This document shows, one piece after another, positions 55,716 through 60,934 of a DNA stretch of 64,000 bases (position 1 is its first letter; every line of letters starts with the position of its first letter). The stretch covers positions 2,604,001 through 2,668,000 of the forward strand of contig JAZGVH010000002.1 of NCBI GenBank assembly GCA_039889245.1. Reading direction: 5' to 3'. The position numbers were made by a program, and so were the translations under genes. This stretch comes from Dermatophilaceae bacterium Soc4.6 (lineage in GTDB: Bacteria > Actinomycetota > Actinomycetes > Actinomycetales > Dermatophilaceae). The notes below the pieces were generated by a model that saw only the letters and a program-made list of their open reading frames with translations, had not been told where the DNA came from and ran no database searches.

Positions 55716-55723
55716 GTCTAAGG
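55716..55723. repeat. ISL3 target-site duplication, left copy
   Basis: GTCTAAGG, identical to 60927-60934 on the other side of the element. An 8-bp duplication is the ISL3-family rule. Confidence 0.92.
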
Positions 55724-55747
55724 GGCTCTTCGGATTCAAGCGTGGGG
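55724..55747. repeat. ISL3 terminal inverted repeat, left
   Basis: 24 bp starting GGCTCTTCGGATTCAAGC; pairs with 60903-60926 with one difference. It contains the transposase stop codon (55736-55738). Confidence 0.92.
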
Positions 55748-55867
55748 TCTTCCTCGTCGGTAGGGGCGGGTTCCTGACACGGCGAGCAGGATGCGGATGC
55801 GGTCGTGCTCGAAGTTGCGGAAGCCGTGGGCCAGGCGCCGGGTCTTCTCGATGATGAGGTTCAGGGT
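55736..55867 (-). pseudogene. ISL3 transposase, C-terminal fragment
   Basis: The minus strand reads LNLIIEKTRRLAHGFRNFEH, then DRIRILLAVSGTRPYRRGRP and stops inside the terminal repeat. This is the end of the ISL3 DDE transposase whose N-terminal part lies at 59603-60801. The two parts join at GGTEAV/NLIIEK once the Tn554-like element is removed. Confidence 0.9.
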
Positions 55868-55878
55868 TATCTGGAGCA
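55868..55878. repeat. Tn554-like terminal inverted repeat, left
   Basis: TTATCTGGAGC, exact complement of 59592-59602. A further copy of the complement, GCTCCAGATAA, lies inside the right end at 59523-59533. Confidence 0.85.
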
Positions 55879-55918
55879 CTTGGTCGGATGTGGCCGGTGA
55901 CCTGCATGTCTGCGTCGG

Positions 55919-56317
55919 CTACATGTCGCTGACGGGGGCGTCGCGGCCGGCGGTGCGGTCCTGCCCGATGCGGGTGGCGAGTTGCAGGCGGAGCGCGTGG
56001 TTCTCTGCTCGCAGGGTGTGGAGTTCCTGGCGGAGGGTGGTCAGCTGTTCGTCGCGGGAGGCTTGGCTCATCCGTTGGGCTGCGGGTTGACGGGGGCTGC
56101 GGGTGGCGGGAGCTCGAAGCCGGTTGATTTGCTCGCGGAGCTGGGGATCGCGATAGAGCAGGGTCCGCGAGACGCCGGCGGTGTGAGCGACGGCGGCGTA
56201 GGTGATGGGGGTGCCAGCGTGGTCGAGGGTATGGATGGCCGCGCGGGCCCGCTCCCGAGCCGATTCGGCTCGGTGCCGGCTCGCGGCAGTGAGGGCTGTG
56301 GTGTTGTCAGCGCGCAT
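55919..56317 (-). CDS. TnpC-like accessory protein (DUF6262)
   Basis: 132 residues: an N-terminal HTH-like domain (HTLDHAGTPITYAAVAHTAG, then VSRTLLYRDPQLREQI) and a C-terminal coiled coil (DEQLTTLRQELHTLRAENHA). This is the third gene of Tn554-type elements; TnpC of Tn554 affects efficiency and orientation of transposition. The ATG at 56317 has AGGA upstream and overlaps tnpB by 11 bp; an ATG at 56347 is also possible. Confidence 0.82.
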   Translation of the reverse strand: MRADNTTALTAASRHRAESARERARAAIHTLDHAGTPITYAAVAHTAGVSRTLLYRDPQLREQINRLRAPATRSPRQPAAQRMSQASRDEQLTTLRQELHTLRAENHALRLQLATRIGQDRTAGRDAPVSDM

Positions 56318-58310
56318 CGGGGGTGTCCTGTCCGGCTGGGGCGTCATGGATCCCGAGGGTCTCGAGGGTTTCCAGCGCGGAGATGATCCTCGTGAGGTTG
56401 TCGGCGACCTTGCGGTGGTTGTCGGCCAGCCGGTGGTTGCCGCGGTGCTCGGCCAGGTCGATCAGTTCGAGGGTGTCGTCGTGTTGGCGCCGGTGGATCG
56501 GCAGGAACGTCGTGGTGGTTTGGAAGTCCGGGCAGGTCAGGCAGGCGTTGGGGTGTGGGCAGTCCTGCTGCGGTGGTCGTCCGCAGTAGCCGTTCGGCAG
56601 GCTGGCCTGCACCCGGGCGAGGTTGTGCTTGATCCACTCGGCGTCGGCGCTGGGACCGTGGGGGTCGAACGGGAGGCGGTCACCGTGGATGTCCACGCGC
56701 CGCTGCTGGTAGTCGTCGAAGGCCGCGCGGACGGTGGCGTCGTGGATCGTGGCGTACCGGGCGGTCATCTGGGGTGAGGCGTGGCCGAGCATCTTCTGAA
56801 CGACGTGCTGCGGCACACCGGCGTTGATCAACCGGGTCCCGAGGGTGTGACGGTACTGGTGCGCGGTGACGGACACGGCCTGGCCGGCTTCGTCGTGGAG
56901 ACTGATCTTCTCCTGCCAGTCGGCTAGGCGCTGGCGCAGGGTGGCGTAGGAGAATGGTTGGGCCCCATCGGGATTGGCGTGAGGCGAGGGAAACAGCTTC
57001 GGGCATCCGGCTGGCCAGCGGCTGCTCAGGTGCAGTTGTTGGGCGCGGACGGCGTCGGCGGCCCGCTGCGACAGCGGGACGAGCTGCTCGGTGGACATCT
57101 TGTGGTTGACGTACTTCAGGCAGGGCCAGCCGGCGCTGTCGACGATGACGGGGTTGTACTCGAGCAGGCAGGCGTCATTGGCGCGTAGGCCGGTCTCCTG
57201 GATGAGGATCAGCAGGTGTCGGGTGGTCTCGTCGGGGAGCAGGGCGAGGTTGTTGGGGTCCTCGAGCTGGGCCATCACGAACTCGGGGATGAACCGTGGC
57301 AGGGGACGCGGCCGCGGTGGCAGCTCGTCCAGGTACAGCGCGGCGTGACCGGAGAGGCCGGGCATCCAGTCGTGGCGGTGGCAGGCCTGCAGGAAGCTGC
57401 GCAGGATGACCAGGTAGGTGTTCGTCGTGTTGCCCGACAACTGCGGCGCCGCGGTGAGCCAGGACAGGTAGTGCTCCAGGACCTGCCGGCTGATCCCGCT
57501 GGCATCATCGACGTCCGGGTGATGGTGATGCAGGAACCCGGCGAACCAGCGCAGGGCACGCTCGTCGATGCTGACCGATCCGAACGCTTTACCGGCGCCG
57601 AGCCGGTAGCGGCAGGCTCGCTTGATCGCCTCACGCAGCCACGGTTGTGGGATGTGGTCGAACCGAATGGGTGGGACCTTCTTCGGCGACGGTCGCGCCC
57701 CGAGTGCGGCTGCCCGCCAGGTGTCTCGAGCGAACTCGGCCTCGGCGTCGATGCCCTCGTCCAGGTCGAGCACCTGCCGCCACGCGAAACGCAGCTGGCC
57801 CATCGCCCGGCCACCGGTGTCGGTCAGGCCGTGCTCGAGGGCCAGCAAGGTCCAGCGCTCCAGCCCGTGGTCCAGCAGCGAGTCGACCCTGGCGGTACTG
57901 ACCAGCCTCACGAGGCGGTTGATCATCATCGGGACGAGGCGGATCGTTCGATGATCGTGGCGGATCTGAATGGAGTAGGCCACCTCCAACCGCAGCTGCA
58001 ACGGCAACCCGCGAAGATCGAACGCGTCGATCCGGTCGCTGTGACCGCCGACCACCGGGCCGGTCGTGGCCGCGAACAGGTCCAGGTCGTGGCGGCCCTC
58101 GTGGACCCACCGTCCGTAGTGGCTGTTGCACAGCAACTTGGTCCAGGCGCCGCGTTCGCAGTCGGTGACGCGGCACTGCCCGCGCGCGAAGACGGGGTGG
58201 GTGGGATCGATGTGGATCAGGTCGACCGCGAACTCCGGTCGGACAGCCGCTCCCAGCTTGTCCAGCAGGCTCAGCGCGCCAGCCCGGTTGGCGTGCAGCG
58301 CGATGGTCAT
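56307..58310 (-). CDS. TnpB-like tyrosine recombinase of the Tn554-type element
   Basis: 667 residues. A long N-terminal region is followed by a phage-integrase catalytic domain: Arg in QETGLRANDACLL, His484-x-x-Arg487 in HQYRHTLGTRL, His510 in MLGHASP and the nucleophile Tyr519 in ARYATIH. A Cys cluster, CGRPPQQDCPHPNACLTC, near residues 576-593 may bind zinc and is typical of this family. The ATG at 58310 overlaps the tnpA stop as ATGA. All catalytic residues are present. Confidence 0.9.
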   Translation of the reverse strand: MTIALHANRAGALSLLDKLGAAVRPEFAVDLIHIDPTHPVFARGQCRVTDCERGAWTKLLCNSHYGRWVHEGRHDLDLFAATTGPVVGGHSDRIDAFDLRGLPLQLRLEVAYSIQIRHDHRTIRLVPMMINRLVRLVSTARVDSLLDHGLERWTLLALEHGLTDTGGRAMGQLRFAWRQVLDLDEGIDAEAEFARDTWRAAALGARPSPKKVPPIRFDHIPQPWLREAIKRACRYRLGAGKAFGSVSIDERALRWFAGFLHHHHPDVDDASGISRQVLEHYLSWLTAAPQLSGNTTNTYLVILRSFLQACHRHDWMPGLSGHAALYLDELPPRPRPLPRFIPEFVMAQLEDPNNLALLPDETTRHLLILIQETGLRANDACLLEYNPVIVDSAGWPCLKYVNHKMSTEQLVPLSQRAADAVRAQQLHLSSRWPAGCPKLFPSPHANPDGAQPFSYATLRQRLADWQEKISLHDEAGQAVSVTAHQYRHTLGTRLINAGVPQHVVQKMLGHASPQMTARYATIHDATVRAAFDDYQQRRVDIHGDRLPFDPHGPSADAEWIKHNLARVQASLPNGYCGRPPQQDCPHPNACLTCPDFQTTTTFLPIHRRQHDDTLELIDLAEHRGNHRLADNHRKVADNLTRIISALETLETLGIHDAPAGQDTPDAR

Positions 58311-59455
58311 GACGGGTCCGCCTGCAGGACCGGGCGAGTGGCTGGCCGCTCGACCCAGAATCCCGCGCGGACGAGCTCGGCCCGCACGTCCTCGACACCG
58401 AGATGGACGTACGTTTCGCTCGTGGTCACGACCGAGCGGTGGGTCAGCATGTTCGAGACGATCTCGATCGGGACACCGGCCCGGATCAGCTCCGTCGCCC
58501 GGGTATGGCGCAGCATGTGGGGGCTGAACTCGATCCCGGTCCCGGCCCGCAGGCGGGCCACGAGCTTCGCGACCGCGTCGTACCGCAGGGGTCGCCCGAC
58601 CGGTGCCGCGAACAGGTTGACGAAGACGTAGTCGCTGTCCAGGTCGCCGTATTCGGTGTGCATGTACTCGCTGTACAGGCGCACCAGCGGCGCTGAAACG
58701 GGCAGCACGGCAACGGTTTTGGTCTTGGCGCGGGCGCCGTTGGCGTTGTCGTCACGCGGCACGATCCGCAGCTCGCACCGACGAGAGATCAGATCGCTGT
58801 GGCGCAGCCCGAGCGCTTGACCCACCCTGATCCCGGTCTCGGCCAGCAGCGCGAGCAGGAACCTGTCTCGCAGCCGCGTGCAGGCGCCGAGGATCACCGC
58901 GACCTCCTCAACGCTCAGCGTGGACGGCAGCCGCCTCGGTGCCTTGAGCTTGACGGGTCTGGTCGCGATCGGGCGTCCCTTGGTGACATGGTGCAGGAAC
59001 GGCTTGAACGACCCCCTCGGTACACGGCGCCACGCGACCAACGACTCAGCCAGGGCCACACCCGTGCGGGCGTGGAAGTCATAGAAGCCGAACACGCCCG
59101 CCAGGTGACGGTTGACGGTGGCCTCGCTGCGGCGGGCCGTTGCAGCATCCAGCACGATGACGTTCGCGGCCGGTGCCCGCAGCCACGACACGAACCGTGA
59201 GACGTCCTCGACTCCGGCGCTGGCCCAGTCGACGCGTCTCAAGGCGAGGAACTCGAGCCACAACGCCAGACTGTGCGCGTACGCCCGCACCGTGTTCGGC
59301 GACCGCTCGATCGAGGACAGGAACGCCAGGTACCGCTCCGCCGCCTCGACCGGACCGAAGTCGTCGTCGACGACGGTCCACGACTCCACCCCCGTCACCG
59401 GCATGAGCACCCGTTGCGCCTTCACCAGCACCGCCACCTCGAGGTCGGCCTGCAC
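58307..59455 (-). CDS. TnpA-like tyrosine recombinase of the Tn554-type element
   Basis: 382-residue tyrosine recombinase with an N-terminal SAM-like core-binding domain (ERYLAFLSSIERSPNTVRAY) and catalytic domain: Arg in AETGIRVGQALGLRHSDL, His313-x-x-Arg316 in HMLRHTRATEL, His339 and Tyr349 in SETYVHLG. The GTG at 59455 is the first start near the right end. Works together with TnpB and TnpC. No inactivating mutation is seen. Confidence 0.9.
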   Translation of the reverse strand: MQADLEVAVLVKAQRVLMPVTGVESWTVVDDDFGPVEAAERYLAFLSSIERSPNTVRAYAHSLALWLEFLALRRVDWASAGVEDVSRFVSWLRAPAANVIVLDAATARRSEATVNRHLAGVFGFYDFHARTGVALAESLVAWRRVPRGSFKPFLHHVTKGRPIATRPVKLKAPRRLPSTLSVEEVAVILGACTRLRDRFLLALLAETGIRVGQALGLRHSDLISRRCELRIVPRDDNANGARAKTKTVAVLPVSAPLVRLYSEYMHTEYGDLDSDYVFVNLFAAPVGRPLRYDAVAKLVARLRAGTGIEFSPHMLRHTRATELIRAGVPIEIVSNMLTHRSVVTTSETYVHLGVEDVRAELVRAGFWVERPATRPVLQADPS

Positions 59456-59591
59456 CGGCTTCCAGCCGGATACCTACTCTTCTACTCCGACCCGCCAGCC
59501 ACGTGGGGGACGTCGAAGACATGCTCCAGATAACGTGTCGCTGACGCACCGGATCGGCCTCGTGAGCTACGTCGGACACACCCTCCGGAGG

Positions 59592-59602
59592 GCTCCAGAT
59601 AA
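59592..59602. repeat. Tn554-like terminal inverted repeat, right
   Basis: GCTCCAGATAA, complement of the left end. Directly before it lies a 12-bp palindrome CCCTCCGGAGGG (59581-59592). Confidence 0.85.
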
Positions 59603-60801
59603 TGACGGCCTCCGTCCCGCCGTTGGAGATGCGGTGGGTCTCGAACCGGGCCATGACGTGCTCACGCCACATCCGCAGCGTGCGCCCGAGCCGGGCGACC
59701 TCGGGGATCGGGCACTGGTGGAACGAGTCGAGGACCTTCTCGGCGGCGGCGCGGCCGGCGGCGGCGTCCTGCTGGTACATCGACCGCAGCTGTTGGTAGG
59801 CGTGCCAGGCGAGGGTGACCTCCCACCCGGGGTCACCGGCGATGAGGCACGCGTTGAGCTTGGCTGCGGCCTTCTCGGGCAAGTGCTCCCGACCGCGGCG
59901 CAGTAGCCCACGGATCTTGTACAGCCGGGTCGTCCTTGTGCCCACGCCGGCCGAGGGTGTCCTGCTGGACCCGGCGGCGGACCTCGTCAACGACCTGGGT
60001 CCCGAGCTTCACGACGTGGAAGGCGTCAAGGACGGCGACGGCATCGGGTAGCTCGTCGCGGATGGCGTCGGCGTACCCGCGGAACGGGTCGAGGGAGGCG
60101 TGCTTGATCCCGGCGGTGAACGTGTTCGGCTGCTTCTTCAGCCACCCCGCGTAGGCGGTGCCGGTCCGGCCGGGGACGACGTCCAGGAGGCGAGCATGCA
60201 GCTGCCCCTCGGCGTCTCGGGTCAGGTCGACCATCCCCGTCACGGCCCGTTGGGCGTCCCCGATCTTCGAGGACCGCCAGATGTGCTCGTCCACGCCGAG
60301 GACCTCGACCCCGTCCAGGCGGGCCGGGTCGGCCACGCGGCGGGTGGCCTCGGCCTCGACCGCGTCCCAGCAGGTGTGCCAGTCGACGCCAAGATGACGG
60401 GCCAGCGCGGACACCGTGGTGTCGTCCAGGGTGAGCGCGTCCGTGGCTCACGCCGCCGCTCTGCTCGTGAGCTTCGCCCGGGGTGCGACGAGGTCGTGAC
60501 GCTCGGTGAAGACCCCTACCGGGCACGCCGGTTCGCGGCACCGCCACAGCCGGGCGAGCCACACCAGCCGCACCGGCACCCCGAACGCGGGGGCTTCCGC
60601 GACGACCCGTCGTCGCCGGCCGTGCCCGATCGCGACGACCCCGCAGGACGGGCAACCGCCGACATCGGCGTCGGTCTCGATAGTCAGAACGAACCTGGTC
60701 TCGTCGCGCTGGACGGTCAGGACGTGCATGCCCGGCACGTCGAACAACAGGTCGGTGCGAGGGCACCAGGTCGCGCTCGAGGCGCACGTAGAGTGGTCCA
60801 C
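59603..60801 (-). pseudogene. ISL3 transposase, N-terminal part with stop codon and frameshift
   Basis: The start is GTG 60801. The N-terminal zinc-ribbon region reads GGCPSCGVVAIGHGRRRR and LWRCREPACPVGVFTERHDL. At 60448-60450 a TGA replaces the expected TGG of RAAAWATDALTL; the same frame continues with SALARHLGVDWHTCWDAVEA, LGVDEHIWRSS (first catalytic Asp) and VLDAFHVVKLGTQVVDEVRR (second). Near 59925-59929 one extra base shifts the frame (GRRGHKDDP to LYKIRGLLRRGREHL). It ends in SNGGTEAV at the Tn554-like junction. Three independent lesions make it a dead gene. Confidence 0.9.
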
Positions 60802-60902
60802 GTCGAGGCCTTCTCTTGGAGCAACTGCTTGGTCGCTGTTGATCCTGAAGGCCTCGACACCCTCATGTGCGGACCGCCACGCCGGGCCCTGTCAGAGCGG
60901 GC

Positions 60903-60926
60903 CCCCACGCTTAAATCCGAAGAGCC
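60903..60926. repeat. ISL3 terminal inverted repeat, right
   Basis: Complement of 55724-55747 with one mismatch (TTT AAGC against TTC AAGC in the outer-to-inner reading). Confidence 0.92.
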
Positions 60927-60934
60927 GTCTAAGG
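60927..60934. repeat. ISL3 target-site duplication, right copy
   Basis: GTCTAAGG, identical to 55716-55723. Confidence 0.92.

Follow-up and report, generated by a model that had tools for sequence, protein, structure and literature searches.

A Tn554-related element that appears to use the DNA encoding a transposase catalytic motif as its attachment site

An element of the actinobacterial Tn554-related class lies inside a broken ISL3 insertion sequence in the 64-kb window, the whole stretch of DNA that was analysed, of a 4.8 Mb actinobacterial genome. Comparison of the sequences makes it highly probable that the attachment site of this element is the DNA coding for the last DDE catalytic motif of ISL3 and IS3 transposases, and that it moves by the cycle proposed below. 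The constant codon register of the insertions, the identity of the multiple copies, an empty site and a donor-type hexamer form the directly observed basis of this reading.

The outer element spans 55716–60934 including both duplications and has the features of the ISL3 family, namely a DDE transposase, terminal inverted repeats and an 8-bp duplication (Table 1). The initial annotation had described 24-bp ends and an 8-bp duplication, and our comparison agrees, with repeats that match at 23 of 24 bp and GTCTAAGG directly abutting both. This 8-mer occurs exactly twice within the window, both times at an ISL3 edge; because at least two matches were also reached in 8 of 100 shuffled windows, the weight of this observation lies in the abutment to the terminal repeats. 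The pieces of the ISL3 transposase were kept unjoined and each was matched separately by tblastn to the intact ISL3 transposase of Kocuria flava (L137). Residues 1–284 and 285–391 of that protein match one side of the inner element and residues 390–432 the other. The reading frame shifts at ~59925, in keeping with the +1 shift reported near 59927, and the reported change of TGG to TGA at 60448 corresponds to an in-frame TGA where the intact K. flava protein has Trp. A trio of genes including two recombinases separates the two pieces of this one transposase, which supports the proposal that a Tn554-type element inserted into a pre-existing ISL3 element. For the inner element the annotation gave limits of 55868–59602; the right limit holds, while the left one is off by one base, since the inverted ends place it at 55867. 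Rfam and tRNA scans of the 64-kb window gave no matches.

Table 1 Features of the nested elements in the 64-kb window.
Feature	Coordinates	Strand	Basis or remark
Target duplication of ISL3, 8 bp, GTCTAAGG	55716..55723	no strand	Sequence comparison
ISL3 terminal inverted repeat, tnp 3' end	55724..55747	no strand	23/24 bp
ISL3 transposase C-terminal piece (NLIIEKTRRLAHGFRN...)	55739..55866	-	tblastn, K. flava ISL3 residues 390-432
attR hexamer CCCTGA (gene orientation)	55861..55866	-	Putative donor footprint by the Tn554/SE rule, PMC10214605
Inner Tn554-like element, 3,736 bp	55867..59602	-	Limits from inverted ends
Terminal inverted repeat TTATCTGGAG	55867..55876	no strand	Sequence comparison
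tnpC-like gene, DUF6262, 142 aa	55919..56347	-	Pfam PF19776, E 3.5e-12
tnpB-like large tyrosine recombinase gene, 667 aa	56307..58310	-	Pfam PF00589, E 4.1e-21
tnpA-like tyrosine recombinase gene, 382 aa	58307..59455	-	Pfam PF00589, E 2.6e-28
Subterminal CTCCAGATAA copy	59524..59533	no strand	69 bp inside the tnpA-side end
Terminal inverted repeat CTCCAGATAA, tnpA-proximal end	59593..59602	no strand	Sequence comparison
attL hexamer CCGTCA (gene orientation)	59603..59608	-	Target's own bases by the Tn554/SE rule
ISL3 transposase N-terminal part: Zn ribbon and most of DDE domain	59604..60801	-	Pfam and tblastn
GAG codon, conserved E-x-x-N glutamate of the ISL3 transposase	59610..59612	-	-10 to -8 from junction
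In-frame TGA in ISL3 gene, Trp in intact relative	60448..60450	-	tblastn
ISL3 terminal inverted repeat, tnp 5' end	60903..60926	no strand	23/24 bp
Target duplication of ISL3, 8 bp, GTCTAAGG	60927..60934	no strand	Sequence comparison

The three genes of the inner element are co-oriented, with overlapping recombinase genes, and fill its 3,736 bp. Two of them encode PF00589 tyrosine recombinases, one longer than 600 residues (667 aa) and one of ordinary size (382 aa), and the third encodes a DUF6262 (PF19776) protein that we liken to Tn554 TnpC by its position. For none of the three proteins did NCBIfam return a model above its cut-off. Among the matches listed, Enterococcus plasmid proteins are 37% identical to the TnpA protein. 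The inner element belongs to the actinobacterial Tn554-related class, which likewise has a long and an ordinary tyrosine recombinase in tandem with a TnpC-type third gene and which the available text of van Houdt et al. 2012 (PMC3414803) describes as mostly actinobacterial and as occurring in several identical copies within a genome.

When the window DNA was searched against the entire genome, four further copies emerged, and all five are identical, with 0 mismatches over 3,736 bp. Each lies inside a transposase gene, three of the ISL3 type and two of the IS3 type. The left junctions read in frame ISNGGTEAV, TSNGPTEAI, YSNARSEGY, YDNALAEAF and YDNALAEAF, and in all five a gap of 7 bp separates the end of the E-x-x-N glutamate codon from the element. 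On the right, each gene picks up again at an Asn codon, reading NLIIEK, NGRLEH, NRLAKH, NSLFKA and NSLFKA. The split between GGTEAV and NLIIEK that had been noted in the window is the first of these. We take the glutamate at this register to be the third catalytic residue of DDE transposases of the ISL3, IS3 and IS256 families. In the three ISL3 hosts the PF01610 match ends at positions 216, 216 and 215 of 240, and the other two hosts are IS3-type proteins with a Pfam rve domain. When the left flanks (1,500 bp) of the ISL3 copies were compared with one another by blastn, the three gave short matches or none, and the flanks of the two IS3 copies are 89–91% alike. Because the host genes are unlike while the element is identical, the copies represent five separate insertions; the inner insertion is targeted and the nesting is no accident. 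Around one of the copies (L050, contig C2 ~1,804,600–1,813,600) we observed a second ISL3 gene, 84% (left) and 94% (right) like the uninterrupted gene L053. The same E-A-I codons mark the break in this second gene, where ~7.5 kb of other DNA intervenes, including the ISL3 element that bears one copy of the inner element.

The short sequences at the junctions carry information about the origin of the copies. The initial annotation had remarked on an extra hexamer at the junction, and this is real: the hexamers at 55861–55866 and 59603–59608 both fit the target and yet differ, so the pair looks like a donor footprint rather than a target duplication. The two hexamers of a copy differ in three of the five cases. 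A single empty site was found, the uninterrupted 454-aa ISL3 gene at L053, which is 100% identical to the flanks of the copy at L049 over 1,311 and 128 bp. Its native hexamer, CCATCA, equals the tnpA-side hexamer of L049, which shows that L049 obtained its far-junction 6 bp from elsewhere. As in the Tn554 family, there is thus no target duplication, and a donor-type left 6 bp lies at the right junction. The far-side hexamer of L049, CCGTCA, equals the tnpA-side hexamer of the window copy, suggesting as donor of L049 either the window copy or a copy in a comparable site. Similarly, the far hexamer of L050 (CGTTCA) suggests descent from a copy in an IS3-like site, in which case the element has crossed between transposase families, and the donor of the window copy itself (CCCTGA) does not appear to be among the five copies. 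This genealogy is proposed as an inference, because donors with identical hexamers might be present in other genomes.

To place these insertions among related ones, we used a contig search with a single protein query, which gave 27 loci, and whole-genome searches, which added more. Ten relatives combine a readable left end with a TnpA identity of at least 70% (L060–L066, L087, which is the same as L106, L088, and L090, which is the same as L105); with the five copies of the host genome they make 15 insertions. Nine of the ten relatives carry a GAR codon at positions -10 to -8 in an ISL3-like frame, the exception being L088 (75%), which is off register and has no transposase there by eye. The GAR codon is therefore present at this register in 14 of 15 close-clade insertions, across two transposase families. 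These 14, all of which sit in transposase-like genes, share an invariant G at -19, GA at -10/-9 and A at -1. Of the ISL3 left pieces, 11 give a match to the Pfam ISL3 model, and it ends at 215–216 of 240 in every one; they include eight of the nine register-true relatives (L061–L066, L105 and L106; the match of L061 is below the curated cut-off). The ninth, L060, offers a 95-aa piece, ISL3-like by eye, for which Pfam gave no match. Nine of the 15 insertions (the five own copies, L060, L064, L065 and L066) have a readable right junction, and in all nine the transposase continues from its Asn codon. In a TnpA tree of 38 rows, the window copy, L060–L066, L106 and L088 form one set with support 96/87, within which L088 is nested beside L106. 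A further 394 genomes of the class yielded no new relative at a TnpA identity of at least 70%, and no stretch of the viral contigs matched the query's patterns. Judged from the sequences, we regard the insertion rule of the close clade as firm.

The consensus derived for the site, AAYGSNNNNNNNGARGCNNNCAA, occurs four times unoccupied in the whole genome, and its backward control not at all. Two of the sites are in ISL3 genes, the empty L053 and an ISL3 remnant with the frame NNGGTEAVK; the other two are in an aldehyde-dehydrogenase-like gene and an uncharacterised ORF, both named by eye. The signature is rare and enriched in transposases, yet not confined to them.

More distant trios, with TnpA identities of 28–54%, were examined as far as their flanks permitted, in most cases with Pfam applied to a single side, and constitute a non-random sample that gives no rate; the plasmid part covers four records among the best 40 of 766 matching ones. 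The trios in transposition or recombination genes often sit at conserved motifs. Four trios (L107, L122, L123 and L101) lie in IS256-type transposases, all with the PF00872 match broken at 337–338 of 379, and L123 is in the opposite orientation to the other three. L143 is in an IS1380-type transposase (PF13701, one side), as L142 probably is too, judging by eye from a 63-aa piece that has no Pfam match. L130 is in an IS3 orfA/orfB region in the opposite orientation (HTH_21, one side), L109 is in IS3 (by eye, one side), and L108 in ISL3 and L110 in IS3 are a few codons off the glutamate. Other targets include a TniB/AAA gene that is flanked by a TnsA-like and a TniQ gene (L102) and, for two look-alike trios on two plasmids (L103 and L104), two different tyrosine recombinase genes, the match of L104 being below the curated cut-off; the far sides of these three loci were read by eye and their far-side pieces have no Pfam match. 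The host genome also contains a second trio (393, 731 and 271 aa) at three loci on contig C2, where the flanks that can be read belong to IstB genes interrupted at the P-loop: L056 (4,181,000–4,188,000) has the IstB match broken at 101 of 238, L057 (4,488,500–4,495,500) one IstB piece from 100 in the opposite orientation, and L055 (4,529,500–4,540,000) one IstB piece by eye.

Several relatives appear to lie outside transposition genes. By eye, no transposition gene was present at the junction of the ~50% loci L126 with its near twin L132, L127, L128 and L129, or of L145 (~50%), which is just past an IS30-like ORF. The 63–68% relatives L069, L071, L075 and L070 (22 bp of flank) are without the register and have no transposase by eye. 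The judged loci leave out L067, L068, L074 and L131 at 63–68%, and L111, L124, L125, L144, L146, L147, L023, L024, L072 and L073 among the distant trios. One conserved target for the whole trio family is rejected on the basis of the off-register 63–68% loci and of the ~50% loci, which lack a transposition gene by eye. We also observed that L069, L070, L071 and L075 seemingly carry an extra small outward gene at the tnpA end, presumably DUF6788-like, and its acquisition may accompany a change of target. The trio at L133 (G332; TnpA 42% identical) sits, just after EGEVVSWA, within a gene with an HD domain (read on one side; dgt-like by eye) that lies outside mobile elements. Cyanobacterial relatives in Anabaena (L072) and Nodosilinea (L073) show 45–46% identity.

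Three other explanations for the insertion pattern were weighed. The first holds that the target is a DNA sequence causally unrelated to transposases, so that any gene with the sequence would serve; recombinases indeed read DNA and not protein, two of the four consensus sites that carry no insertion fall in non-transposase genes, and the IS256-type trios are inserted in both orientations. We nevertheless judge it unlikely, as it is at odds with the finding that every one of the 14 register-true clade insertions is in a transposase-like gene and that some trios of other lineages are also in transposition genes, at other motifs; it differs from an attachment site within the catalytic-motif DNA mostly in emphasis. 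A random inserter that survives in dead IS elements because it is harmless there could draw on the dispensability of IS genes, in which insertions persist, and on the location of L088 and the readable 63–68% relatives elsewhere, but survival alone would scatter insertions along the gene, and such chance nesting is rejected as contradicted by a constant codon position across 14 of 15 insertions and two families, leaving it a negligible probability. Equally improbable is spread as a passenger, with one insertion into ISL3 followed by movement of ISL3 with its cargo, which is rejected as contradicted by the unlike flanks of five identical copies in different host genes of two families and by the stop and frame change that break the window ISL3, even though the window retains intact outer ends and an intact duplication.

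The preferred reading, targeting of the catalytic-motif DNA, leads to the following cycle. The attachment site would be the conserved DNA for N-[AG]-x-x-E-[AS]-x-N, which contains the E-x-x-N glutamate. TnpA and TnpB, aided by TnpC, would generate, by copying or excision, a circular form of the element with the predicted joint CTCCAGATAA-N6-TTATCTGGAG, where N6 is the left hexamer of the donor. The circle would then recombine with the 6 bp that start 1 bp past the Glu codon of another transposase gene, such that the target hexamer is kept at the tnpA-side junction and the donor hexamer is deposited at the far junction. Insertion would cut the target transposase short just after the glutamate and so silence the IS. 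The element offers a testable instance of landing on the most constrained codons of other mobile elements. Such a landing site would exist wherever a rival is active, would be hard for that rival to drift away from and would probably come at low cost to the host, with one transposase broken per landing. In addition, donor–recipient history within a genome may be legible from the 6-bp footprints.

Among the known elements that resemble this one in part, Tn554 integrates at radC, and Tn5053/Tn402 and IS4321/IS5075 use enzyme types other than tyrosine recombinases. Like the inner element, the res site hunters Tn5053/Tn402 (PMC7765201, in its available part) and, by title, IS4321/IS5075 prefer a part of another mobile element, but they target res sites or terminal inverted repeats and not the coding sequence of a catalytic motif. 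Tn554 of Staphylococcus and Enterococcus encodes TnpA, TnpB and TnpC, is site-specific and leaves the 6 bp of the donor's left flank at the new right flank (PMC10214605 and PMC3414803, available parts), without target duplication according to the title of a cited work; its unique integration site (PMC3414803) differs from the five different transposase genes used by the inner element in one genome. For the actinobacterial elements, section 10 of PMC3414803 suggests several similar attB sites and names no insertion gene or motif. SE elements also have two tyrosine recombinases and imperfect inverted ends and follow the 6-bp fingerprint/footprint rule, by which the target's 6 bp stay at attL and the donor's left 6 bp lie at attR, and one was seen entering insJ of IS3 in E. 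coli; they differ in having a fourth core gene (tfp), a median length of 15.7 kb and gammaproteobacterial hosts, compared with three genes in 3,736 bp here (PMC10214605, available text). RIT elements have three tyrosine recombinases, in contrast to two and a DUF6262 protein, and a Tn6049-like transposon is reported to carry one RIT trio within its transposase gene; the available text of PMC3414803 describes no motif or recurrent target. The available parts of the open literature, including PMC8138268, PMC5385486 and PMC11187229, contained no report of a transposase active-site target, with subscription papers mostly outside this search. The trio class and the 6-bp rule are already known, and the transposase active-site target is the part for which our search showed no report.

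A broader and more tentative idea, which we consider possible without favouring it, is that separate trio lineages form a guild, each fixed on the active-site code of its rivals and reading its target through TnpB modules, and act as natural transposon silencers. The proposed targets would be the ISL3/IS3 and IS256 glutamate, IS1380, the IS21 IstB P-loop, a TniB-like ATPase and a tyrosine recombinase box. A pattern search found a single C-x4-C-x9-C-x2-H module near the N end of the window TnpB, at residues 46–64, and one module in each of the seven close-clade TnpBs scanned. Ten of 16 TnpBs of the 50% group have three modules (L101–L104, L107, L111, L122, L123, L125 and L130), and L124 has one. 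The pattern was absent from L126–L129 and L132, whose ORFs look short, and from seven others scanned (L055, L070, L072, L073, L079, L108 and L110). The modules look alike in the IS256-targeting L107, L122, L123 and L101. An AlphaFold2 model of TnpB has a mean pLDDT of 69.9, with the module residues 46–64 mostly below 50. We conjecture that these zinc-finger-like modules are candidate target readers that might bind zinc or DNA; if they read the site, the trio family would be a natural set of recombinases with different targets.

A further feature of the inner element is the CTCCAGATAA repeat 69 bp inside the tnpA-side end, which has the same orientation as the terminal copy and is perhaps an accessory recombinase site. 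At equal spacing, TTATCTGGA is found in L063 and L088.
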